Source of the DNA: a virus
Reading direction: 5' to 3' (one strand)
Length of the DNA stretch: 53,693 bases
Virus record (IMG/VR): IMGVR_UViG_3300009376_001622
Location: 1-53,693 of that record
Below are positions 15,950 to 52,200 of this stretch, piece after piece. Made by a program: the position numbers and the translations under genes. Every line of letters begins with the position of its first letter. Position 1 is the stretch's first letter. The notes under the pieces are model-generated. The model ran no database searches. It worked only from the letters and a program-made list of their open reading frames with translations, and was not told the DNA's origin.

Positions 15950-16414
15950 ATGAAGATTTTTCCTGTAACCCGATTTGGAACTGAGCTTCCAAGTCCATTT
16001 GATATGGTGTCTACTTTTGACAAGATGTTTGATACCTATTTTAACACTCACCCCGTCACCGGTGAGATTTCGCCTAATGGCAATAGTATTACGACTGTGC
16101 CGCGCGCGAACGTCGTAAAGAAGGATAGCGGATATGTTATCGAGCTTGCAGCTCCTGGATTTTCCCGGGACGAGTTTCACATTGACGTGGAAAGCAACAC
16201 TTTGTCGATTGCAGTAAACACCGAGGACACACAGTCCTATAAGGATAGCCTACAGATGCGTGAGTATCGCTACCAGAACTTTTCTCGTAGTTGGACTCTT
16301 CCCGAGGGTGCAAACATCGAGCGTATTAGCGCAAGCTATGAAGCCGGTATCCTTTATGTTGCCATCCCTGTTGAAGGCGTAAAGGATGCTAAGCGCATCA
16401 TTGCTGTTGAATAA
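15950..16414 (+). CDS. hsp20: Hsp20-family small heat shock protein
   Basis: 154 residues. An N-terminal arm (1-45) precedes an alpha-crystallin domain. Its strands include RANVVKKDSGYVIELAAPGF and FSRSWTLPEGANIERISASY, and the closing strand is AGILYVAIP. It binds unfolding proteins without ATP and forms oligomers. Hsp20 is a hallmark of marine T4-like phages, where it is thought to assist virion assembly. It has its own promoter and terminator, and codon choice leans to CGT, CGC and GTC, consistent with strong expression. Start supported by TTGGAG. Confidence 0.95.
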   Translation: MKIFPVTRFGTELPSPFDMVSTFDKMFDTYFNTHPVTGEISPNGNSITTVPRANVVKKDSGYVIELAAPGFSRDEFHIDVESNTLSIAVNTEDTQSYKDSLQMREYRYQNFSRSWTLPEGANIERISASYEAGILYVAIPVEGVKDAKRIIAVE

Positions 16415-19843: not shown

Positions 19844-21256
19844 ATGAGTAACAAATCTACCGCCAACGACGCTCTCACCTCCCGCGAAGTGACAGACGCT
19901 GAAGCTGCTGCTTTCAAGCTGGCGCCATACCTCATCAACTTGATGTGGGATGAGCCTTTCTTCGCACGAGTCCTCCGAGGAATCACTAAAATTAAAACCG
20001 ATGCTATTCCAACTGCTGGCGTCCTCGCTAAGGACGGTGAGGTTAAGTTCTGGTGGAATCCAAAGTTTGTTGCTGGTCTCGGAGCCCCGAAGGTTAAAGG
20101 GCTTATCAAGCACGAATGTTACCACCTTGTTTTCGATCACACGACTTCGCGTCGTCGCGATCCTCACATTGTTTGGAACTACGCTACTGACTTGGCAATC
20201 AACTCTTTGATTGATGAGGCTGAACTTCCCGAAGGCGGTCTTATTCCTGGCAAGGCTTTTAAGGAGCTTACCGAAGAGCAACGCACTCAAATGGGCCCGA
20301 AGGCTGCTGAGCGTTACGAAAAGATTAGCGCTAAGATTGCTAGCTTTCCTAAGAACAAGCATTCCGAGTGGTACTTCTCCGAGTTGATGAAGGACCCAGA
20401 AATGAAGGACATGCTCGAGCAATCCCAAGGTATGGGTGGTAAGAGCCTCGAACAAGCCCTCGCTGATGGCGACGTCAAGGTCGACGAGAACGGAAATCTC
20501 GTTGATGGTGATGGAAACCCTGTGACTGTCGTCCCTGGTAACGGTGCCGATGGCGCTGGTATGGATGACCATAGTGGATGGGATCAACTTTCTGATGAAG
20601 AGCGTGAACTCGTTAAGGGTCAGATTAAGCAGGCTATGGAAGCTGCGGTTCGCGAATGTGACAATAAGGGCCAATGGGGTTCGGTTGGTGCTGGTATGCG
20701 AGCGAAGCTTCGTGAAATGATTTCTAAGGAAATCCCTTGGCAATCAGTTCTTAAGCAGTTCTGTGGAATGACTCGCCGAGCGGATCGTTCTTCCTCCATC
20801 CGTAGAATGCATCGCAAGTATCCCGGTATCCATCCCGGAAGCTTCCGCGATTATGTGTCTAGTATCGCAGTTTACGTCGACCAGTCTGGCTCTGTGTCTG
20901 ACAGCGATTTGGAACTCCTGGCTGGTGAGCTCTCAAGCTTGGCCAAGCGAGTTGAGTTCACTCTGTTTAACTTCGATACCGAGGTTGATGAAGCAAGTGA
21001 GCGAGTTCTCAAGAAGGGACGTCCTGTCCGTCTCGAGCGGACTCGCTGTGGCGGTACCGACTTCAAGTGTGTTCAGGTGCACGCAAACAAAAACTCTCAT
21101 CGGTTCGACGGCTACTTGGTCCTCACCGATGGTTATGCGGGTGACCCCGGTATCTCTCGATTGAAGAGAGGTTGGGTTATTACTCCCGATGGCAAGCTCT
21201 GCTTCGATAAGAAGAAGAAGGATTTTCTCATTGCAATGAAAGGCAAGAACAAGTAA
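19844..21256 (+). CDS. DUF2201-like protein: HExxH domain plus VWA
   Basis: 470 residues from ATG 19844. The N-terminal domain carries IKHECYHLVFDH (HExxH at His90) and ATDLAINSLI, as in the putative metallopeptidase part of DUF2201. A charged middle region (about 175-270) is Asp/Gly-rich. The C-terminal VWA-like domain has VDQSGSVSDSD (about 344) and ends in LVLTDGYAG. Such proteins are encoded beside MoxR ATPases and act as their adaptor. It follows the ATPase and shares its promoter type and codon bias, so the two are probably made in step. Confidence 0.88.
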   Translation: MSNKSTANDALTSREVTDAEAAAFKLAPYLINLMWDEPFFARVLRGITKIKTDAIPTAGVLAKDGEVKFWWNPKFVAGLGAPKVKGLIKHECYHLVFDHTTSRRRDPHIVWNYATDLAINSLIDEAELPEGGLIPGKAFKELTEEQRTQMGPKAAERYEKISAKIASFPKNKHSEWYFSELMKDPEMKDMLEQSQGMGGKSLEQALADGDVKVDENGNLVDGDGNPVTVVPGNGADGAGMDDHSGWDQLSDEERELVKGQIKQAMEAAVRECDNKGQWGSVGAGMRAKLREMISKEIPWQSVLKQFCGMTRRADRSSSIRRMHRKYPGIHPGSFRDYVSSIAVYVDQSGSVSDSDLELLAGELSSLAKRVEFTLFNFDTEVDEASERVLKKGRPVRLERTRCGGTDFKCVQVHANKNSHRFDGYLVLTDGYAGDPGISRLKRGWVITPDGKLCFDKKKKDFLIAMKGKNK

Positions 21257-22514: not shown

Positions 22515-23291
22515 GTGATAATTTTATTTGATATGGATGGAACTTTAACGCCTTCGCGCAAACTAATGAGTCATGGCATGGCAAAAAAGATCGGAGAACT
22601 ATCAAGAAAATTTGATGTAGGAATTGTTACGGGCAGTGGATTAAACTACATTTTAGAACAGTGTAGCATTTTGAAAGAGACTTTCGAAATCGATTGGGAA
22701 AGAATTTATCTTCTCCCGTGTAATGGAACTCAGCTATACCGAATGAATAAAGGAGAGCCAGTACAGGTTTTTTCTGCCGATATGAAAGAAACTATTGGTG
22801 AAGACGTGTATAAATCTCTGGTTGCAAAATTGTGTTACGAACAAACAGTGTTTAGTTCCAATTTAGGTGACCTCAGTATCTTCGGAACATTCATTCAGTA
22901 TAGGAAATCATTACTAAATTGGTGCCCTATTGGAAGAGATTCTGATTATGATACAAACGCTCGAGAAAAATTTGTAAATTTTGATAGAAATACTGGTTTT
23001 CGATTGAACGCATTAAGCGACCTTGAGAATTATTTTGAAAAAAATAGTATAGAAGGATTAACGATCGTGCTCGGAGGCGATACAAGTTTTGATATCTACC
23101 CAAACGGTTGGGATAAGACATACGCGCTAAAGCACTTCAGCACTAAAGATAAAATTGTTTTTGTTGGAGATCGATGTCAAAATAACGGAAACGATCAAAC
23201 TATTTATGAAGCATGCTTACCAGACGCTTATGAAACGACAGGGCCAGATAACACCATTGAACTTATTCAGCAGTTTTTAGATGAGTCGTAA
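22515..23291 (+). CDS. Eukaryote-type phosphomannomutase (HAD fold)
   Basis: 258 residues from GTG 22515 (GGAG upstream). The nucleophile motif is FDMDGTLT (Asp6, Asp8). The family-specific parts are present: WCPIGRDSDYD, GGDTSFDIYPNGWDKTYALK, and FVGDRCQNNGNDQTIYE. These match the PMM1/PMM2 family rather than the unrelated bacterial ManB type. It interconverts mannose 6- and 1-phosphate, the step before GDP-mannose. The mannose-6-phosphate isomerase-like cupin at 30650 could supply substrate. It overlaps the next gene by 11 nt. Confidence 0.88.
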   Translation: MIILFDMDGTLTPSRKLMSHGMAKKIGELSRKFDVGIVTGSGLNYILEQCSILKETFEIDWERIYLLPCNGTQLYRMNKGEPVQVFSADMKETIGEDVYKSLVAKLCYEQTVFSSNLGDLSIFGTFIQYRKSLLNWCPIGRDSDYDTNAREKFVNFDRNTGFRLNALSDLENYFEKNSIEGLTIVLGGDTSFDIYPNGWDKTYALKHFSTKDKIVFVGDRCQNNGNDQTIYEACLPDAYETTGPDNTIELIQQFLDES

Positions 23292-27969: not shown

Positions 27970-29550
27970 ATGACATTTAATTACCAACCAAAATTTCCTT
28001 ACAAGACAGTTAGGTCAGAACAAGATCAGGCCATTAATTTTGCATTAGACGCTTTCCAGACCCAAGGAAAGCGTTTTGTAATTATTGAAGCTGGAACAGG
28101 GGTTGGGAAGTCAGCCATTGGCTTTACGGTTGCTAAGATGCTCGGTACCGGTGCATATTTTTTAACAACGCAAAAAGTCTTGCAAGATCAATATGTACGA
28201 GACTTCGGCCATCTTGGCCTGAAGTCTATTAAATCATCGACAAATTTTCGGTGCAAATACTACAAAGGCAAAGATTGCAGTTCGGCATTAAGGGAACTAA
28301 AGGTTTCCAAGGATCCGAAATTCAAGGCATGTTGTGGTGGCGGATGTATTTATAAAGCCACAAAGAGAACTTTTCTAAATGCAGAACTCGGAACTACTAA
28401 CTTTCCGTATTTTCTTGCCGAAACAAATTATTCAGCACAGCTAGAGCCACGAGGGCTTCTTGTTGTAGACGAGTGTCATAATGCAGAAATCCAACTAGGT
28501 AAATTTATTTCGATTGAAATATCAGAACACTTTGCGGAGTCCGCACTTAAATTAAAGATGCCACAAATGACAACCATGTATCAGGTAGTTACGTGGTTAA
28601 AGAAAACTTATCTGCCAAAGCTCTCGCAGATTAAGCGGCACATGGAAGCGCAGATTGAAAAGTTTTCTCTTGGTACTAGAATGCAGGACTTTGTGCAACT
28701 AGCTAAACGATATGAGCTTATCGATAAACACTTGTGCAAACTAAATCGATTCATGGAAGTCTTCGATAAAGATAATTGGGTCATGAATACATTGACTACA
28801 GAAAAACGGGGAAAGAAGAAATACGAATTTAAGCCGATAGACATCTCTCCGTTCTCAGAAAACAACCTGTTTAGGTCCGGCGAAAAAGTACTTCTCATGA
28901 GCGCTACTGTTATGAACAAGGATGCATTCTGCGAGATCCTCGGGATTCCAAAAGAAGAGTGTGCATTCATCTCTATCCCTAGCCCGTTTCCCGTTTCTAA
29001 TCGGCCGATCATTTTTTCACCGATAGCATCGATGACGAAAAGAAACATTGACCAAGGTTTGCCGAAAATGGCTGAAGCTGTAAGGGCAATTCTCGAAGAG
29101 CATAAAGACGATAAAGGAATTATCCATTGTCATTCCTATAAAATAGCAAACTACTTAAAGAGAAACATACGATCCAGTCGGCTACTTCTTCATGACTCGA
29201 CTAATCGAGACAAGGTACTTTATAGACACATGAATGGCCCACAACCTACTGTACTACTTTCTCCTAGTATGTCTGAGGGTGTGGACTTGAAAGGTGACAC
29301 GAGTCGATTTCAGATTCTTTGTAAGGTTCCTTACCCGTACCTAGGAGATAAGCTTGTCAGTAAAAGAATGCATAAATGGAAATGGTGGTATCCTTTACAG
29401 ACAGCAAAGTCAATTGTACAATCGGTTGGTAGGAGTGTGCGTTCTACAACAGACCACGCAGTCACTTATATTTTAGACGCGGATTGGGAACGATTTTATG
29501 GAAAAAACAAAGGCGTCTTCCCTGAAGATTTTAAACAATGCATAAAATAG
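27970..29550 (+). CDS. XPD/DinG-like Fe-S DNA helicase
   Basis: 526 residues. Walker A is AGTGVGKSA (41-49) and the DEAH-like box is DECH (167-170). Between them are Cys95, Cys103, Cys121/122 and Cys126, the four-Cys Fe-S cluster domain of XPD/DinG helicases. The second RecA domain has SATVMNKDAF, PSMSEGVDLKGD and VQSVGRSVRS. It unwinds DNA 5 to 3 in the known family. A Fe-S cofactor links it to the phage IscU. Expression seems gated by the hairpin and loop promoter just upstream. Confidence 0.93.
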   Translation: MTFNYQPKFPYKTVRSEQDQAINFALDAFQTQGKRFVIIEAGTGVGKSAIGFTVAKMLGTGAYFLTTQKVLQDQYVRDFGHLGLKSIKSSTNFRCKYYKGKDCSSALRELKVSKDPKFKACCGGGCIYKATKRTFLNAELGTTNFPYFLAETNYSAQLEPRGLLVVDECHNAEIQLGKFISIEISEHFAESALKLKMPQMTTMYQVVTWLKKTYLPKLSQIKRHMEAQIEKFSLGTRMQDFVQLAKRYELIDKHLCKLNRFMEVFDKDNWVMNTLTTEKRGKKKYEFKPIDISPFSENNLFRSGEKVLLMSATVMNKDAFCEILGIPKEECAFISIPSPFPVSNRPIIFSPIASMTKRNIDQGLPKMAEAVRAILEEHKDDKGIIHCHSYKIANYLKRNIRSSRLLLHDSTNRDKVLYRHMNGPQPTVLLSPSMSEGVDLKGDTSRFQILCKVPYPYLGDKLVSKRMHKWKWWYPLQTAKSIVQSVGRSVRSTTDHAVTYILDADWERFYGKNKGVFPEDFKQCIK

Positions 29551-32780: not shown

Positions 32781-32797
32781 TTATTTATTATAAATAA
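32781..32797 (+). promoter_or_regulatory. T4 late-type promoter within an inverted repeat
   Basis: TATAAATA (32789-32796) is a perfect match to the T4 late promoter consensus and lies 25 bases before the DUF444 gene. It forms part of the inverted repeat TTATTTA-TTA-TAAATAA (32781-32797). If the phage uses a T4-like late sigma, the next three genes are late genes. Confidence 0.55.
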
Positions 32798-32820
32798 TAA
32801 TTATTTTTTGAGGAACAATA

Positions 32821-33990
32821 ATGGGTAGTGTTTTTAGCCATCACAGAACAACAGCAGACAGAAGTGCCAGTGATCGACGTCGCCATAAAGAAAAGATCGA
32901 ACGTGCAATTCGCGAAGGGGTTCACGATATTGTGGCTGAAGAGTCCATTATTGGTCAAGACGGGAAGAAAAAAATAAAAATTCCTGTTAGAGGAATAAAA
33001 GAATATAAGTTCGTATACGGCCAAAACGATAATGGAGTCGGGGCCGGTGGAGATGCTGACATCTCACGTGGACAAAAAATAAGTACCAGACGACGCCAGG
33101 GTAAACCTGGTAAACCAGATAAGCCCGGTGACGAACAGGGCGAAGAATATTATGAAGTAGAGGTTACTCTCGAAGAGCTAGCGGACTATCTTTTCCGTGA
33201 TCTTGAATTGCCTGATCTAGAAAAGAAGAAAATGAAAGAAATAGTCCAGGAAAAATTCCAAAGAAAGGGCTATAGAAACGATGGTATCCGTCCAAGGCTA
33301 AGCAAGAAAGAAACTGCTAAACGAAGAATCCGTAGAAAGAAGGCTGCCGAAAGGGCCGGGACTTATGATCCTGATAGTGATGAATCATTTACTTTTAGAG
33401 AACAAGACTTACGATATAAACATATCCAGACTACGAAAAAATACGCAACTAATGCCGCTATCTTTTTCATCATGGACATTTCTGGCTCGATGACGAAAGA
33501 TAAAAAATATCTTGCAAGGAGTTTCTTTTTTCTGTTATATCATTTCATACGATCAAGGTATGAAAAAACAGAAATCGTTTTCGTTGCTCATGATACGCAT
33601 GCTTATGAAACCGATGAGGACAAGTTTTTTGGTAGAGGCTCTAGTGGAGGAACAATGGTAAGCCCTGCACTTGACCATGTTTTGGAACAAATCGAAAAAA
33701 GATTTAACCCAGCGTCATGGAACCTATATGCTTTTCATTGTTCAGATGGAGATAACTGGCCATCAGACATGGAAAGAGCTGTTATCGCTTCTGAAAAATT
33801 AAAGTCAATCTGCCAACTTTATGGCTACTGTGAAATTGAGCCAGAGCGAGAAGCCATTAAATGGCTAAACGAAACTACCCTTAGTAAGGCTTATGAATAT
33901 CTGGATGGTGGTAGCTTTAAGATGGCTAGAATAAGAACGCCTCAAGATGTCTGGCCTGCGTTTAAGAAATTTTTTGGGGGGCAATCATGA
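32821..33990 (+). CDS. yeaH: DUF444 protein, YeaH/YhbH family
   Basis: 389 residues. It begins with an Arg-rich helix (SASDRRRHKEKIERAIREGV). It has the characteristic basic middle region (ISTRRRQGKPGK and KETAKRRIRRKKAAE) and a C-terminal VWA-like domain with FFIMDISGSM (Asp218), ending DVWPAFKKFF. In bacteria YeaH/YhbH is co-expressed with PrkA and SpoVR in stationary phase or sporulation. Here it is the first gene of the same trio. It overlaps SpoVR by 4 nt. Confidence 0.93.
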   Translation: MGSVFSHHRTTADRSASDRRRHKEKIERAIREGVHDIVAEESIIGQDGKKKIKIPVRGIKEYKFVYGQNDNGVGAGGDADISRGQKISTRRRQGKPGKPDKPGDEQGEEYYEVEVTLEELADYLFRDLELPDLEKKKMKEIVQEKFQRKGYRNDGIRPRLSKKETAKRRIRRKKAAERAGTYDPDSDESFTFREQDLRYKHIQTTKKYATNAAIFFIMDISGSMTKDKKYLARSFFFLLYHFIRSRYEKTEIVFVAHDTHAYETDEDKFFGRGSSGGTMVSPALDHVLEQIEKRFNPASWNLYAFHCSDGDNWPSDMERAVIASEKLKSICQLYGYCEIEPEREAIKWLNETTLSKAYEYLDGGSFKMARIRTPQDVWPAFKKFFGGQS

Positions 33991-35294
33991 CTAGCTGGAG
34001 CCTTAAAGATCTAGAGGATTGGGATGAAAAAATCTGTGAGATTGCTAGAAGCCATAATCTAGATTGGTATCCCATAACTTATGAGACTTGTGATTATTAT
34101 GAGATGATTGGTAATATGTCTTATCACGGAATGCCAACACATTATGGGCATTGGAGTTATGGTAAGTCTTTTGAAATTCAACATAGTCAATATAATGCCG
34201 GAGCTACGGGACTTCCATATGAATTAATCATTAATTCTGATCCGTGCATCTCTTATCTAATGCTTGAAAATCCGCTTTATTTGCAAGTTTTAATAATGGC
34301 CCACTGTGTAGGTCATTCAGACTTCTTCAAGCAAAATAGAAATTTTATGTATACTAGAGCTGATACTGTAGTCCCTAGAATGCGCAATGCAAAAAAACGA
34401 ATTCAAAAATACATTGAAGACCCTAGCATTGGAATCGCATCTGTAGAACAGATGATTGATTCATGTCACGCTATTTCTTATCAGGTGCCCAGATTTCCAA
34501 CTAGCATTAGAGAAATCGAAGAAGAAAGACAGCGATGGATCGAGGGCGCTGTGTCCATAGATGATCATGGGCTTACTGAAGAAGCTCTTAACAAAATACC
34601 GTTTGAAGAAGAATATGACATCTTAGGGTTTATTGGAGAATATGCAAATAACCTTAGTGAATGGAAGCGCGATGTTATCCAAATAGTTCAGGACGAAGCC
34701 TATTACTTTATGCCACAAATCAGAACGAAAATTATGAATGAGGGTTGGGCTTGTTTTTGGCATTATAAAATTCTACACGAATTAGATTTGCCACAAGGAT
34801 TGCATATTCCGTTCTTGAAATCACATAACCAAGTAGTTAGGCCACATGTAGGCAGAATTAATCCGTATCACCTTGGGTTTCACCTATTTAACAAAATCGA
34901 AGAACGATACGATTTAGAAGAATGTTTTATTGCACGAGAGGTTCACAATGATGAAAGCTTCATAAGGCAATATTTAACTCAAGAAGATTGCGAAGAGCTT
35001 AATTTATTTTCCTACGGAGAAAAGGAAGACCATATCGTGGTAACTGATGTATCTGATGACATAGGGTGGAAGGACGTGAAGAATAGGTTGATAAAGCAAA
35101 TAGGCGGAAATTCAATACCGACTATTTATGTTAACGATCTTGAAGAAAATAACGTCCTTATCTTACATCACGAACACGATGGGAGAGACCTCCAGTTGAA
35201 CTACGCTAAAAAAGTTGTAGAACATACTAAACACATTTGGGAAAATGATGTAAAATTATTAACTATGGTGGACGACGCACCGTTTGAAATTTAA
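33987..35294 (+). CDS. spoVR: SpoVR family protein
   Basis: 435 residues. The hallmarks are YEMIGNMSYHGMPTHYGHWS near residue 31, IMAHCVGHSDFFKQN near residue 107, GWACFWHYKILHELDLPQG near 252 and RINPYHLGFHLF near 290. SpoVR (YcgB) proteins are needed for the spore cortex in Bacillus and act with YeaH and PrkA (YeaG) elsewhere; the biochemistry is unsettled. The length is normal and the gene looks intact. It is coupled to DUF444 (ATGA) and lies 15 nt before prkA. Confidence 0.94.
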   Translation: MTSWSLKDLEDWDEKICEIARSHNLDWYPITYETCDYYEMIGNMSYHGMPTHYGHWSYGKSFEIQHSQYNAGATGLPYELIINSDPCISYLMLENPLYLQVLIMAHCVGHSDFFKQNRNFMYTRADTVVPRMRNAKKRIQKYIEDPSIGIASVEQMIDSCHAISYQVPRFPTSIREIEEERQRWIEGAVSIDDHGLTEEALNKIPFEEEYDILGFIGEYANNLSEWKRDVIQIVQDEAYYFMPQIRTKIMNEGWACFWHYKILHELDLPQGLHIPFLKSHNQVVRPHVGRINPYHLGFHLFNKIEERYDLEECFIAREVHNDESFIRQYLTQEDCEELNLFSYGEKEDHIVVTDVSDDIGWKDVKNRLIKQIGGNSIPTIYVNDLEENNVLILHHEHDGRDLQLNYAKKVVEHTKHIWENDVKLLTMVDDAPFEI

Positions 35295-35309
35295 AAGGGG
35301 TTTAGGATT

Positions 35310-37238
35310 ATGGATAAGTCCAAGTTTTTAGAACTTATAGAAAAGCAAAGAAAAATTCGGGGACCGGAGAAGTTTCAGGGTACATTTTTAGAATACCTGT
35401 CTCGGGTCTCTGAAGATTCTGATATTGTAAAATTGGCACATAAAAGGCTTTACGATGCTGTTTGTGAAAAGGGCGTATCTGAATTTGAAGAAGGAAGTGA
35501 TAGAAAGAGAAAGATTTTTAACGGAGATAATGTTAAAATTTACGATTATTTCAAAACAGAATTTTATGGTAATGAACGAGTAATTGAAAGAATCATGAGA
35601 TTCTTAAAAGGAGCAGCATTAAGAGGAGAGGAAAGCAGGCAGGTTCTTCTACTAATGGGGCCTGTTGGTGCAGGTAAAAGTGCACTAACAGAACACATTA
35701 AGAGTGCGCTAGACGGTGAAAAATATTATCACCTAGAAGGCGACCCCCAGAGAGGCGAACCTCTACAACTTCTCCCGCGATCCCTCCGGGCACAGTTTGA
35801 GGAAATGCTGGGAGTTAAAATCGAAGGAGACCTAAGCCCCGTTGCACGATGGAAGCTTTTGAACGAGCAAGACGGTCACTACGAAAACTTCCCAGTAGTT
35901 CAGTCGTCGTTTTCTCAGCGTGGTCGTCGGGGGATCGCATCTGTTCCACCAATGGATGCCAATAGTCAAGACGTATCTGTTTTGATTGGGTCTGAAGATA
36001 TTTCAAAGCTGGATAAATATTCTGAAGATGACCCGCGGGTACTGAATCTAACCGGTGCATTCAATGTTGGCAACAGGGGAATTGTAGAGCTTATCGAGGT
36101 TTTCAAGAACGAGATTGAGTTTCTTCATACAATCATCACCGCTACTCAGGAGAAACGTGTGCCAGCGCCAGGTAAACACGACATGGTACACTTTGACGGT
36201 GTTATCCTTGCACACTGTAACGAAAGCGAATGGAATAGGTTTAAGAGCGAACATACAAACGAGGCAATTTTAGATCGTGTTGTAAAGATCAACGTTCCGT
36301 ATGTATTAGAGCTTGATCAGGAAATCAAAATTTACGAAAAGATTCTTCGACGTTCTGATTTTAACGCCCACATTGCTCCGCATACAATCAAGGTTGCATC
36401 AATGTTTTCTGTCATGAGTCGCCTCAAGCAATCTCAAAAGTGTGACGTCTTAACAAAAATGAAAATCTACAACGGTGAAGAAGTCATCGAAAAAGGCCGA
36501 GTGAAAAAAATTGATATAACCGACCTTAGAGAAGAATCTCGTGGCGAAGGAATGAAAGGCATTTCTACAAGGTTTATTATGAAAGCAATAGACTACGCGC
36601 TTTGTGAATCAGACTCCGGTTGCGTGACGCCTATTGGGGTAATGTCGTCTATTACAAAGATGGTTAAAGAACAGATCGTCGATGAAGACTTCAGGGAAAA
36701 GTGTCTAGAGCTTATCAGAAAGGTAGTGAGAGAAGAATATCTCAGCATTCTAGAAACAGAAATTGCGAAAGCATTTATTACAGCCTACGAAGAACAAGCG
36801 CAGTCTTTGTTTGACACATACCTTGATAATGCAGAGGCATTCAGTACTCGTAGCAAAATGAGAGATAACGTAACGAGAGAAGAACGTATGCCAGACGAAA
36901 CATTCATGAAATCTATCGAAGAGGTTATTGGAATTACTGGTTCTTCTAAGCAAGGATTCAGGTCTGACGTTACCGCCTATATGTTTGCTAAGATGCGCAG
37001 AAAAGAAAAGGTAGACTATAAGTCTTATGAACCTCTTAAAGAGGCTATTGAGTCATACCTCATTAATTCTGTTAAGGATATGGCCAGAATTGTAACCAAA
37101 TCCAAGACAAGAGATGAAGAGCAGAGGAAAAAATATAGTGAAATGGTTTGTACACTTATGACCGAATATGGTTATAATGAACAGTCAGCAGAAGAAATTT
37201 TAACTTATGCTAGTAATAATCTCTGGAGGGATTCATGA
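35310..37238 (+). CDS. prkA: PrkA/YeaG serine protein kinase, AAA+
   Basis: 642 residues, the normal length of the family. Walker A is GPVGAGKSA (about 117-125). The PrkA-specific motifs YHLEGDPQRGEPLQLLPRSL and the conserved SEYESFK-like region (NESEWNRFKSEH) are present, and the C-terminal PrkA domain (about 400-642) is complete. It phosphorylates proteins in response to starvation or entry into sporulation. Together with the two genes before it, it would give the phage a full stationary-phase module. It overlaps the next gene by 4 nt. Confidence 0.95.
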   Translation: MDKSKFLELIEKQRKIRGPEKFQGTFLEYLSRVSEDSDIVKLAHKRLYDAVCEKGVSEFEEGSDRKRKIFNGDNVKIYDYFKTEFYGNERVIERIMRFLKGAALRGEESRQVLLLMGPVGAGKSALTEHIKSALDGEKYYHLEGDPQRGEPLQLLPRSLRAQFEEMLGVKIEGDLSPVARWKLLNEQDGHYENFPVVQSSFSQRGRRGIASVPPMDANSQDVSVLIGSEDISKLDKYSEDDPRVLNLTGAFNVGNRGIVELIEVFKNEIEFLHTIITATQEKRVPAPGKHDMVHFDGVILAHCNESEWNRFKSEHTNEAILDRVVKINVPYVLELDQEIKIYEKILRRSDFNAHIAPHTIKVASMFSVMSRLKQSQKCDVLTKMKIYNGEEVIEKGRVKKIDITDLREESRGEGMKGISTRFIMKAIDYALCESDSGCVTPIGVMSSITKMVKEQIVDEDFREKCLELIRKVVREEYLSILETEIAKAFITAYEEQAQSLFDTYLDNAEAFSTRSKMRDNVTREERMPDETFMKSIEEVIGITGSSKQGFRSDVTAYMFAKMRRKEKVDYKSYEPLKEAIESYLINSVKDMARIVTKSKTRDEEQRKKYSEMVCTLMTEYGYNEQSAEEILTYASNNLWRDS

Positions 37239-37498
37239 AAATAGCTTTTGGAATGTCAGAAATATTGGTGCTATCCGGTGTATATCTCTACTCCTCGGCA
37301 TTTGCGTTTAGCTTAACGCTAGTCGGATTAGGGCTACTGGGTAAACTGGTAGCTCTAGGGATGGAGAAGGCTGAAGAAGAAAGCCGACGAGAAACAGCAG
37401 AAAAATCTATTCGAAATGTTGTGGATACAATCATCGGTGCCGTTAATAATGCCACTGATTTGAAAGCCAGTGGTTCGAAGAATGGAACATTTCATTAA
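37235..37498 (+). CDS. Small membrane protein
   Basis: 87 residues overlapping prkA by 4 nt. Residues 6-43 are hydrophobic and may make two short helices (MSEILVLSGVYLYSSAFAFS and LTLVGLGLLGKLVALGM). The C-terminal half is charged and helical. The function is unknown. Position suggests a link to the PrkA operon or to the chaperonin gene it overlaps. Confidence 0.7.
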   Translation: MKIAFGMSEILVLSGVYLYSSAFAFSLTLVGLGLLGKLVALGMEKAEEESRRETAEKSIRNVVDTIIGAVNNATDLKASGSKNGTFH

Positions 37499-38729
37499 GA
37501 CATCAGTCCACGATGTTAATACAAAAGATTTTCTTCCAATAAAAAAAATTTGCAGTGATGTCTTAAACCAAAGAGTAATATTAAAAGACGGAAAAAAAAT
37601 ACCTGCCAACATTGGTACGATTCATTCCTTATTAAAGCTCTATTGCAAAAACACCGTTGAAGAAAGAGTATGCGAAATAATTGCAGACTCAATTGTGTTT
37701 TGTGAAAAAAGATTCCCCACTAGCGGGATTGCTTTGATCGCAATGATAAACGAATCTCTTAAAGAGACGTCAGAATTTTCTAAAAGGGTTTCGTTTTCTG
37801 AAGCGAAAAAATCTGCAATTTCTACAATCAACGGTAGACTAGCCAAGTTTTTATTTGCAGAAATAATAACCATTACAGGCGCAGATTCAAAAATTTCAGT
37901 AACAAGGCAACCTGTAGAAAAACCAATCATTAGGGTTAAATCTAAACCAGAAGTAAGGATTCAGATCCCAGAAAAATTTATTGGAATAGATTTTGCATTG
38001 CCGCAAGAAATCTCCGATGTTTATTTCTTTATGATTAACGGAGCTGCAGCTGAGGTTGCTGAACTTGAATTTCTTTTCAATCGTTCTTATGACTCAAATG
38101 CCAATTTTATAATAGCGGCGAGATCATTTACTGACGAGATACTAGAAGTATTAAAAATAAATTTTCTCGCGAAGAAACTAAAAATAATTCCAGCAGAATT
38201 TGGGTTTGACCTAGACTCTATTAATTCTATTGCTGACCTAACTGCAGTCGTAGGCGGGTTGCCTATTTCTTCTGATCTAGGAGATATCATTTCTGGGGAT
38301 CATTCGTCACGTTTTGGTTATAGCGAAAAAGTTATTCTAGAAAAAGAGTCATTTCAATTTTATGGAAAAAATCTAGGTAATGTAGATAATCAAATTATGG
38401 CCTTAAAAAACAAAATAAAGAATGCTAATTCACAAGACAAACAGGAGTTGTTAACTCGGAGATTAAGCAACTTAACAAGTAATTCTTGTGAGGTAATTTT
38501 GCCTAGTGGAGAATTGTTTGATGCCGTTGCAAGAGAGTTGGGGATCGCATTTAGCATATTAAAAACATGTTGCGCTTATTTATGTAAAGAGGTTTCTGTT
38601 TCTCAGAATCTAGAAAATGTTTATTTTCCTGAGCCTTCTTTACAAATAGCAGCATTACAATTTGTTGAGGTTTGTAAGATTTTTCAAAATACAAATCGAG
38701 CGGTTGTAAGGGATGATGTTCACCAATGA
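37482..38729 (+). CDS. Shortened, diverged GroEL-like chaperonin
   Basis: 415 residues from ATG 37482 (GroEL has about 548). Residues 168-280 follow the GroEL apical domain: GIDFALPQEISDVYFFMING, then NFIIAARSFTDEILEVLKIN, then IADLTAVVGGLPISSDLGDI. Residues 280-340 follow the descending intermediate helix region (ALKNKIKNANSQDKQELLTR then LSNLTSNSCEVIL). The N-terminal equatorial part is recognisable but lacks the GDGTTT ATP-binding motif (RFPTSGIALIA at that place). The final equatorial domain is cut short. It is unlikely to be a normal ATP-driven folding machine; it could cap, inhibit or redirect host GroEL. The homology is read by eye. Confidence 0.72.
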   Translation: MEHFIKTSVHDVNTKDFLPIKKICSDVLNQRVILKDGKKIPANIGTIHSLLKLYCKNTVEERVCEIIADSIVFCEKRFPTSGIALIAMINESLKETSEFSKRVSFSEAKKSAISTINGRLAKFLFAEIITITGADSKISVTRQPVEKPIIRVKSKPEVRIQIPEKFIGIDFALPQEISDVYFFMINGAAAEVAELEFLFNRSYDSNANFIIAARSFTDEILEVLKINFLAKKLKIIPAEFGFDLDSINSIADLTAVVGGLPISSDLGDIISGDHSSRFGYSEKVILEKESFQFYGKNLGNVDNQIMALKNKIKNANSQDKQELLTRRLSNLTSNSCEVILPSGELFDAVARELGIAFSILKTCCAYLCKEVSVSQNLENVYFPEPSLQIAALQFVEVCKIFQNTNRAVVRDDVHQ

Positions 38730-40639: not shown

Positions 40640-40670
40640 ACAACAACATTACTAAATGTACGGAGTTACT

Positions 40671-41978
40671 TTGTCTAGAAAAATTTTTATAATCGATACA
40701 TCGGTTCTTTTATACGATAAAACCTCAATTCATTCCTTCCCCGGTAACGATATCGTATTACCAATGGCGGTCTTGGAAGAGCTAGATAGGTTTAAAGACA
40801 AACCAGGCCTTCTTGGTGAGTCTGCTAGGTATGTTAACAGATACCTAGATGAACTTCGCTCTGTGGCCATTGTGGATGACTGGAAGCTGGTTGAAGAATA
40901 TGATCACAGATATGCTTTCGATACGTCCACTGAAAACGGCCATCGGGCTTCAAGAAGTCTAGATAAGGCAAAAAACGATAATAAGATTATTGCTTGTGCA
41001 TTAAGAACTATTGACTCAAACAAAAAAACCAAAGTCACAGTAATTACAAAAGATATTAACCTTAGGGTTAAATGCGACGCCCTGGGTGTAAAGTCAGAGG
41101 ACTACTATAAGGATCACATAGAAAACGATTTAGGCGATTATCGCGGGTGGGTTGATTTAACGCTCAATGATCACGATATCGACAAGTTCTATTCGGATAA
41201 AAAACTGGAGCAGGAGTCTGAACTAGACCCTAACGTATTTGTGGTTGGTAAAGGAAATAATGGTAAAAGCCTTCTTGCAAAAAATAAGAATGGACTTTTA
41301 AGACCGTTAGTTCAAGAAATGTGTTCACTATACCAGGTCGAACCACGCAACAGCGAGCAACGGTTCGCCATAGAGGCGTTGCTAGACCCAGATATAAAAT
41401 TAGTTACCCTGACCGGGTTAGCTGGATCGGGCAAAACATTCTTGTCGCTAATGGCTGCGCTAAATAGTACAAAGGGCGGCGCAATCGCAGAGCAGATGGG
41501 TGTTAAAAAACGATTGGTAATAACAAGAACACTCCAGCCGGTTGGTAGGGATCTAGGATATCTTCCCGGTAGTATGGAAGACAAGATGGCTCCGTGGCTG
41601 GCGCCCATTATGGATAACGTCAGACACGCGTTTAATGACCTTTCGTACTTCCAGCACATGATTACTAAGGGAGACATTGAAATAGCGCCCATCCCATACA
41701 TACGCGGCCGTACGTTCTCGGATGCGTTCATTATTGTTGATGAAGCACAAAATGCCACCATTCATGAACTAAAGACAATAATCACAAGAGTTGGCCAAAA
41801 TAGCAAAGTGGTTTTGCTAGGAGACGTCGATCAAATTGATACACCATATATCGACAAGAGATCTAATGGTTTGAGCATAGTTATAGATAGATTTAGGCAA
41901 TCCAATTTAGCTGCACACGTGCATCTCTCAAAAGGACAGCGTTCTGATCTAGCTACGGAAGCCGGAAAAATTCTTTAG
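40671..41978 (+). CDS. phoH: PIN-PhoH protein (YlaK-type)
   Basis: 435 residues from TTG 40671 (MSRKIFIIDTSVLLYD), preferred over ATG 40656 because CGGAG lies 7 bases upstream. An N-terminal PIN domain (Asp9 and other acids, nuclease fold; residues about 1-150) is fused to a C-terminal PhoH ATPase with Walker A GLAGSGKTF (about 249) and DEAQN (about 360). PIN-PhoH proteins are widespread in marine phages; an RNA helicase/nuclease role is suggested in bacteria. phoH is common in marine phages and is often linked to phosphate stress, as is the PiT gene here. Confidence 0.93.
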   Translation: MSRKIFIIDTSVLLYDKTSIHSFPGNDIVLPMAVLEELDRFKDKPGLLGESARYVNRYLDELRSVAIVDDWKLVEEYDHRYAFDTSTENGHRASRSLDKAKNDNKIIACALRTIDSNKKTKVTVITKDINLRVKCDALGVKSEDYYKDHIENDLGDYRGWVDLTLNDHDIDKFYSDKKLEQESELDPNVFVVGKGNNGKSLLAKNKNGLLRPLVQEMCSLYQVEPRNSEQRFAIEALLDPDIKLVTLTGLAGSGKTFLSLMAALNSTKGGAIAEQMGVKKRLVITRTLQPVGRDLGYLPGSMEDKMAPWLAPIMDNVRHAFNDLSYFQHMITKGDIEIAPIPYIRGRTFSDAFIIVDEAQNATIHELKTIITRVGQNSKVVLLGDVDQIDTPYIDKRSNGLSIVIDRFRQSNLAAHVHLSKGQRSDLATEAGKIL

Positions 41979-43237: not shown

Positions 43238-46200
43238 ATGTCAAGAGATTTCCGTTCACAGCAAATGAGAATAAGCCAATTGATAGCATCCGGCACAACG
43301 CCGTTTGCTTCTCCTGCGCTTACCATTTATAGTGCAAGTGCCGCTGACGACGATCAGGGTACAATGAACACTAAGTTGCTTCAATATGTCGGAAACGACG
43401 TCTGGTTCTTTATTTCAGGATCAGAGCCCAATGTAATGCAGCCACTTCATTATTTAACCGCATCGATGACTTCGAATGGTGGCTCGCGGGAGGCTGTAAC
43501 TTTATTCGGCGGGCGGGTGGCCGTAAGCGGTGCACTAAACTTTGTTAGTAATAATAAATCACTTAGTGCGATTCATGGTGCATCAGGTAGTAATGTAGGT
43601 ATTTTTTCCGATAGAAGCGTTTTTGTAAGTCTTGATCGACTAAAACTATATTCTGGAGATCTGGCAAAATTTGCTATACGAAACGAAGACCTAGATGAGG
43701 TTTTTGTTGTCGGTGAAAACGGAAATGTTGGCACTATCGGAACAGGTAGTTTTCATGGTGGTGAAGTTATCATTAACCAGAGGTCAGCAGGCAATGACGC
43801 GGAACTAACGTTTCAGCTTAACGGTAGTGATGAATGGGTAGCAGGTGTCGACGCTTCCGATAGTGATAAGTTTAAAATCCATTCCGCGGGATCACTAGCC
43901 AATGCCTCTAACTTTGAAATTGATTCTTCTGGAAATGCTACTGTTCTCGGAGACCTCACTGTTACTGGCGGAGACATCTATGGCACAACGGATGGAGATC
44001 TAAATATCAGATCCGATGGCAATATGGTTCTTCACCTGGATAATGACAATGATGAAACCAGTCAATCCCTCCAGATCTATAGTAATAACGCTACTTCACT
44101 TTTTGCGGTTACTGATACCGGAGACACGTCTGCGATTGGAAGCCTATCTATTACAAAAGGCGGTGTAATCAATGAATCTGGCAATAACCATGATTTCCGA
44201 GTGGAAACTGCAGCACTTTCGGCTGCGATTCAGACAATCGGTGATCAGAATGCAGTTACATTTTTAAGAAATTCGACTGCCGATATTGCTCAAAATGATG
44301 TAAACTTTTATGTAAAAGGTATTGCCGGTGGAAAAAACGTAGTAGGCACTAGGGGTGTTTCGCTGTTTACCGGAGACGTTGTTATCTCTGGTACCCTGTA
44401 TGCAGAAAAGCAAGTCATGGAAGTCGACATGACACAAACTGGTCACCTAAACATGTCCGGCGCAATTACATTTGACGACCAGGGTGCTGCACCGAGTAGC
44501 CAAGGAAATACAAACCTAACTATTCCAGCTGGAGACGGTTCGATCTTCGCAGCCACAGGATCAATGTATGTAAGAATGGCTGATCTTGCTGGGAATACTT
44601 CTGAATTTTCAATTGGTAGAAACTATCACGGCGGTAATGGTCTTGCAGTGCAACATCACGCAACACCCGATACAGTATTCTCTTTGGACATTCAGGAACT
44701 GACAAGTTCTTTCAGTAACAGTAATCTGGACGGAAATGATTGGCTAGCTATTGCCGATAATTCTCAGCAAATAGCCGGTACTATGGGCCTTAGGGAAACA
44801 AAAAGAATTCATGTAGATAATTTTGTTAAAAACCTGACTGGTAACGGAATAAGAAATGCATCGAAGACCTCTGCGTTTTCGGGAAGCCAGGGCACAAGGT
44901 TTATGACGGATGATGGCATTGTTGCCCACTTATCGGGTGCAATCTTTCCGGGATCTGTTGGCATAACTGGTTCTCATGCGGGCTATGCTTTATCTACAGT
45001 AGGAAAAGTTGGCGTAGGTGTCGCGGATCCTTCAGCTCAGCTTGAGGTCTTCTCCACTAGCCAGCAACTTAAGCTTTCTTATGATGCTGCCAACTTTTCG
45101 AATTTTAGTGTAGATAGTTCTGGTAATTTAACTATTCTTGCAGACCAAACAGATGCAAACGGCGACACGAGTATAATCTTTCAAACAGACTATAGAGAAA
45201 CAGACGCGACCAAGTTAACTCTTGCCCAGGCCGCCGCCACTTTTACAACAAATTTGTTTGTCGATTCTTCGTCAGGCACAGCAGGCTCGAACCGATTAGA
45301 TAATGATGGTGGCGGAATTACAACGACCAAGGCCATCGACAACGCTACCTGCGCCGATCTCATGTTTAAAAAATCCCGAGGCACCGTAGGTTCAGAGTCT
45401 GTTGTATCTGTAGAAGACAATCTTGGGTCAGTAAGCTTTTGGGGTTATGATTCTGGTCAATTTAGAAGAGCCGCATCGATCAAGGGTATGGCTGATGCAG
45501 CTTGGGGTTCCGTTGATGCTCCGTCTAGACTAACGTTTAGCACTACACCAGATGGTTCTGGGACCGAAGTAGAAAGGCTTCGAATCAAAAACGACGGGAG
45601 TATTGGGGTCGGTACAATAACTCCGGCAAACAAGCACGTAGTATCATCAGGGTCAGCAGAAACTTATGGCGGGGACCTAATTATCAATAGGGCAGTCGGT
45701 AGCGATGTTCTTCAAAGATTTCAGAAGGCATCACAAGATTTCTGGGTCATGGGGATTGACCATAGTGATAGTGATAAATTCAAGATTAACAGCGCAGCTG
45801 CGTTGGTCGATGCTTCTGATTTTATTCTAGACTCTTCTGGTAACGTAACCCTTGGTGGTACTCTTAGGCTCCAGGGCAACATTATTAAAGCTTCCGACGG
45901 TGGTTCAACAATTACCTTAGATACCGATGACAACGTTACAATCGCTGGGGATCTTCGGGTCAGTGGTGGTGATATTAGTGGCCCAGTTGATGCAGCTCTT
46001 CGTCTCAAGTCAGACCTAGGGGTTGTTGTCCACCTAGATGAAGATAACGATGGGACGAATAACTTCCAGGTTATGGACGGTGCAAATGCCGTAATCTTCC
46101 AGGTCTCTGAAGCAGGTGATGCGACTGTCGCTGGCGACTTAAGTGTCGATGGAGGAGATGTTTTTGATTCAGGCAATGTTGCCGCGATCCATCTCTCCGG

Positions 46201-49200
46201 TTCCGGCGACGTTGGCATTTGGGGTGATCTTACAGTTTGGGGTAATGACATTAAGGATCACAGTGGTAATATTGCTATTACCTTTGACGGCGCCCAGAAT
46301 ACGGAAATTAAAGGACATCTAAAGGTAGACGGAAACATCCTTGGTGATGCTGACGAATCTAAAGTAATTTTTACCCAATCGACTTCAGCAGGATCTACTA
46401 TTACGCTTGGCGGTGGTGGTAAGGTTATTACGACTGGAGACCTGCAGGTTTCCGGTAACGATATTCTTATGGCCGGTGCTCAATCGGCTATAACCTTCTC
46501 TGGTACTGGTGATGTAGCCACTACTGGTGACCTTAAAGTCGGCGGTAACGATATTAAAAACAGTGCTGGCGGAACAGTTGTTACGTTTAGCTCTACAGAA
46601 ACTCAGCTAGCCGGGAATCTTAAGGTTGGCGGAAATGTTATCAAGGCCTCTGATGGTGGTTCGACAATCACCATGGATACTGACGACAATGTTACAATCG
46701 CAGGAGACCTTACGGTTAGTGGCGGAGACATCAGCGGCCCAGAAGATGGAGACTTGACAGTCAAAACTGATGGGAACATGACATTTAGGATTGACGGAGA
46801 CAATGATGAAACAAGTCAATATTTCGCATTCCAAAATAATGCTTCTACTGAAGTTGCAAGATTAACCGAAGGCGGTAGCCTACAACTAGACGGGACTATC
46901 AGGGTTGACGGAAACGAAATCCATGATGCTGGTGGAGCTACTGCAATTTCTTTTGACGGTAGCCAAAATACAGTATTTGCAGGAGACATATTTGTACCAA
47001 GCACCATTCAGCACGTCGGTGATACAGATACAAGAATAACTTTTACTGACAACCTTATTGAAGTTAACTCTGGTGGTACATCGATGATTAAGCTAGATGG
47101 CACTAGCACTACTAGAAACGTCGTCATTAACGAAGATTCAAGAGACTTAAACTTCCGGGTTGAAACCGACAACAAACCATATGCTATTTTAACCAGTGGA
47201 AGTGCAGATCAGGTACTGATCTTATCTGGTGGAGATTCCACATCTTACGATGAAGCTCGAGGACTTGATGTTGCGTTCTACATATCTGGATCTAGTTCGA
47301 CTTATGGTACATCAGCTCATGGTCATCGGGGTACTACAGTCATCGGTGGAGATCTAGTTGTATCTGGTTCTATCCTAAATCATGAACACAGTATTTTGAA
47401 TCGAGACTCTATTAGCGAAAGTGGAACCGGCTGGAATCCATCTGCTACAAATACAAATACAATTGCAATAGGAAAAAATGCTGTCGCATCCGGAAACTAC
47501 TCTATCGCATTGGGTAGTAGTGAGACGAACCAGACCGATGCTACTGGGCTTCATGCTGCGGCCATCGGTGGTGACGATGCAACAGCAAGTGGGGATTACT
47601 CATCGACATTAGGTGGCTATGGAAATACAGCTAGCGGAAACTATTCAACTACTGTTGGAGGAACAAGCCATACAGTTTCAGGCCAATATAGTTTCTCAGC
47701 AGGAAATGCCAATACAGTAACCGGAAATAACGCTTTTGCCTTAGGGCGAGGATTAACGGTTAATGAAAATAATACCTTCGCGATTGGTAAGTCTGACGCG
47801 AGTAGCGTGATTGCCTTAAGCGGTTCAGCCAAGGTTGTTGGCGGAAATCTTCAAATTGCAGAATACCTTAAGCATTTAGGAGACGATGATACCTATGTTC
47901 GATTTACAGATGACAACATAAACATTCAGGCCGGAGGCGTTAACTTCATAACGATTTCCGAAAATGATTCTCAAGATGTTATTGTGTTTAATCAAGACAG
48001 CGCGGACATTGACTTCCGAGTAGAGACTAATGCTAGAACGCACGGTTTATTTGTCGATGCTGGAAACGAAAGAGTTCTGATCCTGTCTGGTGGTCACCAA
48101 GACGCCGAAAACACTGGTCAAGCTCTCGATGTAAACTTCTTTGTTTCGGGTTCAATTGGCTATGATGGTTATAATCGAGGAAAAACGGCATTCGGTGGGG
48201 ATGTACATGTTTCCGGGTCTGTATCTGGCCCGAGTACAGTTGCGCTTGGGGTAAATGATAGCGTCAAAATTTATAGAACTGCAAACACATTGTATTTCAA
48301 GGATGGGGAAAATGTTGCGAAGACATTAAGCGTGCTTTCATCTGATACGGCCTCTACAGACTTTTTTGCTGGGGTACACGGGTCCACTCCTGCGACTGCC
48401 AAATTAAAGGCCACTGGATCTATTGCGTTTGCAGGTAATTCTGATAACTTTGTTGACGGTCTTACGGCTGAAGGCGTTGGGCAAGATGTCTTCTGTTTCT
48501 TCTCTGGTTCTATTGGAGCAAAGGCTGGCTGGAATACACCTGGTGCAAACCGGTTTAAAACCGACGGCAGAGGGGTCATATTGTTTGGTGGCGACTCGCA
48601 CTTCTCCGGTTCAACTGGGTTTACTGATGTCTTAGCAACTACTAATGTCGTAGCATCTGGATCATTAATTGCCGGTGGTGATGTCATCAAAAACTCTAAT
48701 GGTGACACAAGCATTAAATTCAGTGCAACAGATTCTAACGTATTATTTGGAGATGCATCTGTTATAGATCACACACCACAATCGATTATCCAAATTGAAA
48801 AAGCTACAAATGCTCAGGCTGCAGCAGCAAATGCATACGGTGCCTTTGGATTATCATTGAGGAACGACTCGGTCCAAACCGACGCTTTCGCAGGAATCGC
48901 ATTCGATATATCTACAGAGACAGAAGCAGATTCTATTGGTGCAGCAATCCGAGCCCAGAGAGATACATCTGCAAGCACAGATGAAACCTTGCACGATGCA
49001 AACCTTACTTTTGCTACAAATGATGCAGGAGATTCTGGTCTAACTGAACGTATGAGAATTACGCATGATGGAAAAGTTGGGATTGGAATAAATGACCCTG
49101 CAACAACATTGCACATTTCTGCTACAGACTCAATGGTTGTCCCAGTTGGAACAACGGGCCAGCGGGGAACGGCTACCCAAGGCGGTATCCGATACAATAC

Positions 49201-52200
49201 ATCAACCTCTGTATTCGAAGGCTACAATGGTTCTTCATGGGCTTCGTTAGGTGAAACTAAGGATGTTGACCAAGATACATACGTACGAGCTGAGACAGTT
49301 GCTGGCGCAGATAACGATGATTTAGTATTTGTAACCAATGGTACGCAAAGGATGTCCATCGACCATCTTGGTGTTACCGCAGTTACAGGAAGTTTCGAAA
49401 CATCAACGCATGTTACTGTTGGCGGAAACCTAACTGTCTCCGGGAATGATATTAAAGACTCCGGTGGAAATGTTGCTATTTCGTTTAATGGCTCTGGCCA
49501 AATTGATAATCAAATAGAATTTGGAAGTACAGTTAACGTATCCCAGTATATTCAACATATTGGTGATACTAATACAAGACTGAAGTTTAATAACCAGGCA
49601 ATTTATGTAGAGACTGGTGGAGTAGCAAATCAGTCTTGGGGTACAACCGCGACGGTATTTAATGAAGCCGGAGCAGACATAGATTTCCGAGTTGAATCGG
49701 ATAATAACCCACACATGATATTTGTCAATGCCCAAAACGATAGAGTGGGTATAGGTATGGACTCACCTCAGGCCGCATTGCATATTAAAGGTGATGTTTA
49801 CTTTAAGGATGAAGATTCTTCGAACGATGTTCTTCGAATTACCGACGATGGATCTGCTGGAATTATTGAACTTCGCAGTGGAGGTGCAGCAACAGGATAT
49901 CTAAAGTCATCAGGTGATTCATACTTGCCAGGAAAACTAGGCATTGGTGGTACAACTCCAGAAAATGCTCTGACAGTAAGGCATACTGGCGCCGATACAA
50001 ATGATGGTGTTCTAGTTGTAAGAGCGGATTCAACAACAAATGATGGCGATATTCTTGGTGGAATCGGGTTTGATTCGACCGATGGTAATGTCCCAAGTTC
50101 TATTACAGAAGCTTCAGCGTTTATTGCTGCTTATGCGGCAGAAGCTCATACAACTGGTGATAAGGGTGGTGACCTTGTGTTTGGGACATCAGCGATTAAC
50201 GACGACGACGATACTGTTTCAACTGAACACATGAGAATTCTTGATAGTGGGCTGATCGGGATGGGTGTAAGCGACCCAGATGCTGGTCTCGAAGTCATGA
50301 ATACATCATCTCAGTTGAAACTTTCTTATAACGGCACTAACGCCGCGGCGTTTACAGTTAGTAGTGGTGGCGATCTAACAGTTGTGCCTTCTGGTGGCGA
50401 TGTTGCGATAATCGGTAACTTAGATGTTTCTGTAAATGCTGCGATAGGTAGTGGTGCCAGTGTATCTTCGAACACTGCCTTAGAAATCGATAATGCTCAT
50501 ACGATGACGGCCGCAGGGGTCGGCCAACTTCGTATTAGAGGTGCCCTAACAACAAACAATAATGCTACAGCTACTAACAATAATACGAGATTCTTTTCAG
50601 TGTGGCCAGATAGTACAACTCTAGCTGGTGATGTTGATACTATTTCTGTTGCAAAAATTCTAGGACCTCAAGTTTCGCTCAGCGGGCATAGTTTAAATGA
50701 AGCAATGAGTCTAGAGATGTGGGGTATGGCATCTGAAGCAACAGGTCATCAGTTACATCCTTCCGGATCTACAAAATTCCAAAATAATTGGCAGATTTGG
50801 GGAAGTAGTAAATCGCAATTTGCCGAGGCTTGGATCGGTAATGATAAAAGCACAGCTAGCAACAGCCTTTATAGTAGTAATACATCTACCGCCGACTACG
50901 GGGATTTTACTGTATTCAGCACCAGCGGATACACAGCCCTGGGACCGAGGCGGGCGAGGCTAAAGTCAACGTTTGATGGCGTCAGCACTTCTTACTATGC
51001 AACTGCTTTTTGTGGGCATAATTCATCGATTGTTTCCGGAAGTTACCATCGAGAGTATAAAGGAGCCGGAGTTCTTACCTATGTAAACGAAGGCGCCCAG
51101 GTGACTTCCCAGACTTGGCCACCGCAAAATAGCAATGCGCCGACAAAAGAAGATGGTTCCAATTTGGACTACGGCAGCAATGCTTACGGGTCGTACATGG
51201 GCCCAACTGATAGTAACGGTGATGATCCGGAATGGTACATTGATATTGTTCCAGCCTCAGGCACAGACACTAAACTTATAGTTTATTTTGCTATGAAAAA
51301 CGACTCTTCCAATCCTGTGAGCTCGACCACGGATTACATTCGATGCTATCCCCGGACTGCAGGCGGATCAAGTTTAAGTAATTTTACCGCCCAGGAATAT
51401 AGACAGAGATCTAACACGACTTGGTACGCGACTTATAGTGCTTCTCCTGGTACAACTTATGTTAATGTTGCAAGTCCAAGGTATGATGGGGATAGTACTG
51501 GCAATTCGGATGATGCAGTCGGTTGGCGTAAATTAGTATTTACCGGAGATGATCTTCACAGCATCGGTCGGTTGCATTTTGATGGGATTGCCATAGATTC
51601 GGGAGAAGCATTCTATGTGCACAATACCCACCAAATTGAATATCTTCAAGGCCCGCCTGACGATGTGGCTGGGTCAACTAACGGTTCTACAAACGGTTTC
51701 TCTGCTGGCCTCCTGTATGAAGATGCACTAATGGATGGTACCAGCCGAGTATCTGAAATAGCTTATTTATGTTTGTCCCTCGCCAAAGGAGACGGAACAT
51801 CATTCGAACGAACTGTTGATACTACTGCGCTGGCTGCCTTGGATGCGTCAGATGCAATGATATTACAGTTCTCATTTGATAATGGTACAAATTGGGAATT
51901 AGCAAATAATAAATTTTATAAAAAGGGCACTGGAATCGGAGCTGGATCTGAACAGCCATCTCAAACAACAATGAAGCAAGATTATACAGAACTTTCTACT
52001 GTAGGCAAGATCTTGGGTTCTGAAATGTCTAACTCTCAATGGGATTCGTTTGTTTACCCGATGCCACTTCATAGCGACAGAAACATGGATAATTTCCAGT
52101 GGAGAATTGCATGTGATGGAACAGACATTACGAAGGGCTTCGTTATCCACAAGGCCAGCATTGCGTGGTGGTTCGAGCGCGGAATGAGACTATATAAGTC

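Follow-up and report, generated by a model that had tools for sequence, protein, structure and literature searches.

A complete YeaH-SpoVR-PrkA gene trio as a core cassette of a jumbo phage lineage

Introduction

The bacterial genes for PrkA, YeaH and SpoVR have long been annotated as sporulation or starvation genes, and the biochemical role of their products is still debated. Here we describe a complete set of these three genes in a virus record of 53,693 bases from IMG/VR (IMGVR_UViG_3300009376_001622; the whole stretch is referred to as the window), together with its distribution, conservation and possible function in a lineage of related phages. The bacterial modules that serve for comparison are YeaG-YeaH-YcgB of Escherichia coli, PrkA/YhbH/SpoVR of Bacillus and the corresponding genes of Thermomicrobium. 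They encode the same three Pfam families as the phage lineage, and the Walker A and MIDAS residues as well as the HxxxH and NEGW residues of SpoVR are the same. On the other hand, bacterial loci are mostly ordered PrkA-YeaH-SpoVR, their products share at most about 37% identity with those of the lineage, and they belong to a separate clade. Furthermore, the SpoVR of the lineage is shorter and does not have the insert that is found in the myxobacterial proteins.

Several phages have been deposited with trio genes of their own. The Thermus phages phiYS40, TMA, phiLo, MN1 and Lalka carry all three genes in the same order as the lineage, and the record of phiYS40 already annotates SpoVR and PrkA. 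However, their PrkA proteins are 30-33% identical to that of the lineage, they stand apart in the trees, and in phiYS40 an additional gene separates SpoVR from PrkA. The full trio also occurs in four huge phages (LR745206, LR756502, LR756504 and LR756511). The Ralstonia jumbo phage RsoM2USA, a myophage, has an annotated SpoVR family protein and a PrkA; by its published description, on which this comparison is based, these are ORF28 and ORF30, whose best hits are bacterial, and the parts of that description considered here name no YeaH (PMC8504454).

Beyond these loci, the NorQ-NorD and CbbQ-CbbO systems combine an AAA+ ATPase with a VWA/MIDAS protein, as PrkA and YeaH would do. In the case of NorQD, the pair serves to insert metal into a target (PMC13036017). 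The likeness has its limits, because NorQ and CbbQ are MoxR-class ATPases whereas PrkA constitutes a family of its own, and because the client of PrkA-YeaH is putative (PMC13036017; PMC9976466 for NorQD).

Results

A complete trio with conserved synteny

The trio comprises three complete open reading frames (ORFs) on the + strand of the window, in the order YeaH, SpoVR, PrkA, from position 32821 to 37238. YeaH/YhbH (DUF444; 32821-33990, 389 residues) matches PF04285 with an E value of 6.6e-111, and SpoVR (33987-35294, 435 residues) matches PF04293 with 1.7e-120. PrkA (35310-37238, 642 residues) consists of an AAA_PrkA domain (PF08298, 3.5e-133) and a C-terminal PrkA domain (PF06798, 7.9e-77). 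All three genes are adjacent and co-oriented; YeaH and SpoVR overlap by the four bases ATGA, and a gap of 15 nucleotides separates SpoVR from PrkA. A previous interpretation of the window, made without database searches (the sequence-only reading), had described a complete and tightly coupled trio in this order, and both statements are borne out by the full-length ORFs, the strong Pfam matches and the spacing. As an ATGA overlap also joins PrkA to the next ORF (37235-37498, + strand), a small frame that is weakly conserved in some relatives, the operon continues past position 37238, where that reading had let it end.

A scan of IMG/VR with PrkA yielded 162 stretches that encode a relative, and the best 80 of them are 70-84% identical to the window protein. 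Pooling the PrkA, SpoVR, helicase and genome scans, we counted 88 other distinct records. The full trio, in the order YeaH-SpoVR-PrkA, is present in 84 of these 88, and the other four (L007, L011, L014 and L028) are cut by contig ends. In many of the 88 records the trio sits between a DNA helicase gene (27970-29550 in the window, + strand; phrog_2488, 4e-114) and a PhoH-like gene (40656-41978, + strand; phrog_2765, 2.8e-95). For more distant members, mainly those with low similarity, one or both of these anchors did not turn up in the stretch retrieved. When the search was anchored at the helicase, all seven lineage loci proved to contain the trio. A third anchor was the Gp23-type capsid gene, which at least 600 contigs carry. 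PrkA is encoded in all three capsid contigs that span far enough upstream, one of which had also been found via PrkA, and the nine capsid contigs lacking PrkA fail to reach, or barely reach, its expected position. The distance from the trio or PrkA to the capsid gene amounts to about 63-110 kb.

The longest records of the lineage measure 273-361 kb. The lineage also includes a phage contig of 305,838 bases (NHDW01000006.1), here called the 306-kb phage, which has been binned in the metagenome-assembled genome (MAG) Methylococcaceae bacterium TMED69. Much of the window aligns collinearly with it. Two further phage contigs occur in MAGs of Legionellales and Halobacteriovorax.

Within the reach of the available contigs, these loci show the trio to be a vertically inherited core cassette of a large, widespread lineage of jumbo phages with a T4-type capsid. 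The sequence-only reading had correctly recognized the trio in a phage but missed this main point. In our literature search, which left most subscription journals outside, we found no report of the trio as the core of a jumbo phage lineage, and a survey of marine jumbo phages does not mention these genes (PMC9123017). Within that literature the trio's core status across the lineage would be new, whereas phage-borne trios as such were already on deposit in the Thermus phages.

Conservation and origin

Across the lineage PrkA is 69-84% identical, which is above the values for PhoH (46-61%) and the helicase (49-71%). The most conserved proteins common to the window and the 306-kb phage are the trio and a MoxR-like/VWA pair (72-82%). 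Pairwise ratios of nonsynonymous to synonymous substitution rates (dN/dS) of the trio lie at about 0.01-0.04, a sign of purifying selection; this applies to pairs with a measurable dS, most dS values being saturated. Invariance was counted over 95-102 sequences of the lineage, including some duplicates of one contig. In PrkA, the Walker A motif GPVGAGKS covers residues 117-124, and both K123 (equivalent to K116 of E. coli YeaG) and K425 (equivalent to K426) are found in 102/102 sequences. The MIDAS residues D219, S221, S223, T278 and D309 of YeaH are invariant in 95/95. Likewise, H106, H110, E252 and H259 of SpoVR do not vary within the lineage (99/99 for the first three). Kinase-dead active sites, which had been named as a potential argument against a working module, were not encountered, as Walker A, MIDAS and K425 are all intact.

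In the trees of PrkA, SpoVR and YeaH (the latter calculated with FastTree only), the lineage forms a single clade each time. The nearest bacterial PrkA sequences found are those of Bacillus licheniformis (37%) and Thermomicrobium (36%), followed by myxobacteria (about 32%); owing to its patterns the genome scan picked up few bacteria, and a nearer bacterial relative may have been missed. Within this sampling, the phylogenetic comparison with host trios that had been suggested earlier places the lineage as monophyletic and distant from the bacteria found. The Thermus phages are located elsewhere in the trees, three of the huge phages fall with Pseudomonadota and the fourth with Myxococcota. Judging from this placement and from their mostly bacterial gene order, the huge-phage trios represent separate captures. 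Since the phage trios branch in separate places, the trees would imply that phages took up the trio at least four times, albeit with several long branches and limited bacterial sampling. The order YeaH-SpoVR-PrkA is common to the lineage and the Thermus phages, yet the two do not group. Genes regarded as a dormancy module can form part of the core equipment of viruses, and phages have captured them several times.

Predicted properties of the three proteins

In E. coli, the function of YeaG requires K116 and K426 (PMC4664914). Both lysines have equivalents in the lineage, as noted above; in other PrkA proteins the K426 position is occupied by Asn (Bacillus and Thermomicrobium) or Asp (myxobacteria and Thermus phages). 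Purified PrkA of Bacillus anthracis exhibits negligible kinase and protease activity (PMC13001217). Because of this negligible activity and of the variable K426 position, it would be premature to call the phage PrkA a kinase.

A sequence search for solved structures returned 9xip for PrkA and none for SpoVR or YeaH. The structural model of YeaH adopts a VWA fold, and chain G of the NorQD complex ranks second among its matches in the Protein Data Bank (PDB). As modelled, YeaH resembles NorD and belongs to the MIDAS/VWA proteins. For SpoVR, the AlphaFold2 model has a mean pLDDT (predicted local distance difference test score) of 84.9, and its top VIA-align matches are mostly metallopeptidases of several families, with Z scores from 11.4 down to about 6. 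For a mostly helical protein such matches are suggestive, and with this moderate support SpoVR may have a zincin-like metallopeptidase fold. In the model, one helix bears H106xxxH110 and a later one E252, an arrangement that could correspond to gluzincin metal ligands. The residue that follows H106 is a Cys (HCxGH) in nearly all lineage members; the bacterial proteins have HVxxH, and the two His and the downstream Glu (E252) are retained.

The SpoVR gene of one relative (L055, 3255-5813) harbours an intein with a LAGLIDADG homing endonuclease domain. Its insertion site, NEGWA/C, is located between NEGWA and the invariant His and thus inside the NEGW...H motif. Inteins generally favour conserved active-site motifs of needed proteins.

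Outside the trio, the window encodes a second pair of the same machine type. A MoxR-like AAA+ ATPase (AAA_5; 18614-19696, + strand; PF07728, 2.9e-13) adjoins a protein that combines a putative metallopeptidase domain and a VWA domain in one chain (DUF2201; 19844-21256, + strand; PF13203, 1.7e-16, and PF09967, 6e-9), and the two are 80% and 77% identical, respectively, in the 306-kb phage. PHROGs labels the DUF2201 family as HNH endonuclease, a label that looks wrong.

The region upstream of YeaH

The sequence-only reading had placed the trio under a T4 late-type promoter, represented by the octamer TATAAATA at 32789-32796 (+ strand). The octamer is indeed present, but its interpretation is not supported. 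Over both strands of the window it occurs twice, against 3.12 occurrences expected by chance from shuffled sequences, the second copy being on the antisense strand of the helicase gene. Related loci lack the octamer in the 70 bases 5′ of YeaH (0/96), and it is likewise missing from the intergenic upstream regions of the 306-kb phage (0/153). We have therefore rejected a T4 late promoter 5′ of YeaH on the basis of the octamer counts and the absence in relatives.

The YeaH upstream regions of the lineage have a weak, different motif in common, ATANTTA, which reached a log-likelihood of 71.9 in an expectation-maximization analysis of 69 de-duplicated upstream regions, compared with 22-29 in shuffles. 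Its match in the window, TAATAATTA at 32795-32803 (+ strand), is a putative promoter element; ATANTTA shows no bias to the coding strand in the window. As to a gp55-like sigma factor, weak matches to phrog_234 were detected in five of eight records (best E value 6.7e-8) and none within the 53.7-kb fragment that constitutes the window. Going by these matches, the phages may possess a late system like that of T4, for which the octamer provides no evidence.

Discussion

The resemblance of YeaH to NorD, the fold matches of SpoVR, the intein site and the second AAA+/VWA module lead us to propose an AAA+/VWA machine composed of PrkA and YeaH, the client of which would be SpoVR. The AAA+ ATPase PrkA would work with the VWA/MIDAS protein YeaH in the manner of NorQ-NorD or CbbQ-CbbO, and a MIDAS-bearing VWA partner is in fact encoded beside the ATPase in the same operon. 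SpoVR, a putative metal-binding protein of possible zincin-like fold, would be the dedicated client that this machine remodels or loads with metal. The product would be an active but atypical metalloenzyme, which would help infected cells to remain productive when the host is slow or starved. Complex formation, the client relation, the metal and the physiological effect are what we infer, and we consider the chances of the proposal to be about evenly balanced.

Several observations weigh against it. A Foldseek search of the PDB with the SpoVR model gave no match with an E value below 0.001, and for a helical model such as this one Z scores of 9-11 can reflect a common arrangement. Neither the phage nor the bacterial SpoVR proteins have the catalytic Glu of HExxH, so that peptidase activity may be absent. 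PrkA is not a MoxR-class ATPase, and its kinship to NorQ exists at the AAA+ level only. Finally, YeaG R232, which is also required in E. coli (PMC4664914), is replaced by Ser in the lineage as well as in Bacillus and Thermomicrobium; for this reason the mechanism may differ from that in E. coli.

A more specific version of the proposal can be put forward tentatively, and we would sooner expect it to fail than to hold. SpoVR would be a zincin-fold metalloenzyme without the classical Glu, PrkA-YeaH would be its activator, and the trio would be a core infection machine, beside the second AAA+/VWA/metallopeptidase module, instead of a borrowed dormancy switch. If this were true, the phage would reveal the general biochemical function of the bacterial PrkA-YeaH-SpoVR trio. 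A lineage that keeps all three genes in one operon under very strong selection offers a compact natural system for studying that function.

Among the alternatives, control of the host state fares best, although we regard it as unlikely. Here the phage trio would mimic starvation regulators, through phosphorylation or otherwise, and either maintain or prevent dormancy of the host to allow virion production in starving cells. Roles in nitrogen starvation (YeaG, PMC4664914) and in osmotic stress and sporulation (PMC13001217) are known for the bacterial orthologues, and the retention of the lysine equivalent to YeaG K426 throughout the lineage would fit such a role. However, the same lysine is variable across the family, the kinase activity of PrkA is disputed in the literature (PMC4664914 against PMC13001217), and an identity of no more than about 37% to the bacterial trios found does not speak for docking into the pathway of one host.

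A role of the trio in counter-defence, where it would attenuate toxin-antitoxin or abortive-infection responses, is improbable. YeaG represses the expression of the toxin-antitoxin systems mqsRA and dinJ-yafQ in starved E. coli (PMC4664914), and repeated capture by unrelated phages would be compatible with a conflict gene. Typical counter-defence genes evolve fast, though, whereas the trio is extremely conserved, has a core syntenic position and adjoins helicase and PhoH instead of lying in a variable accessory region.

We attach a similarly low probability to virion morphogenesis, i.e. the remodelling or maturation of structural proteins late in infection. Assembly could be the target of an AAA+/VWA machine, and in the Thermus phages the trio is situated near the genes for a portal/minor head protein and terminase. 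In the lineage, however, the trio is remote from the capsid gene, among helicase, PhoH and nucleotide-related genes, and relatives do not share the supposed late promoter.

Contamination, or a recent functionless passenger copy of host genes, has a precedent in Enterobacter phage LAU1, where yeaG-yeaH lie at the end of the record and cluster with host genes, but is ruled out for the lineage by the monophyly, synteny and strong selection of its intact trio. The LAU1 genes are probably host DNA inside a phage record.

Other features of the window

Downstream of the trio and its small coupled ORF lies a fast-evolving ORF (37470-38729, + strand) that weakly matches a GroEL family of phages (phrog_5725, 1.8e-7). 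It has matches at 20-34% identity in relatives and is near the trio in many of them.

A transfer-messenger RNA (tmRNA) gene at 13197-13607 encodes the tag ANNNYYYESARLAA, and that of the related 306-kb phage (L246, 11716-12106) the tag ANNNYHYESARLAA. Genes for a ClpS adaptor and an Hsp20 protein are located at 14785-15105 and 15950-16414. Taken together, ClpS, Hsp20, the tmRNA and the two AAA+/VWA modules suggest a proteostasis kit.

The window also contains a match to eukaryotic-type phosphomannomutase (22515-23291; PMM, E value 1.3e-34), which is unusual for a phage. A NifU-like protein for iron-sulphur cluster assembly is encoded at 5565-5975 and has no match in the 306-kb phage, and a tail-fibre-like protein of 3167 residues (43238-52741) is little conserved there.

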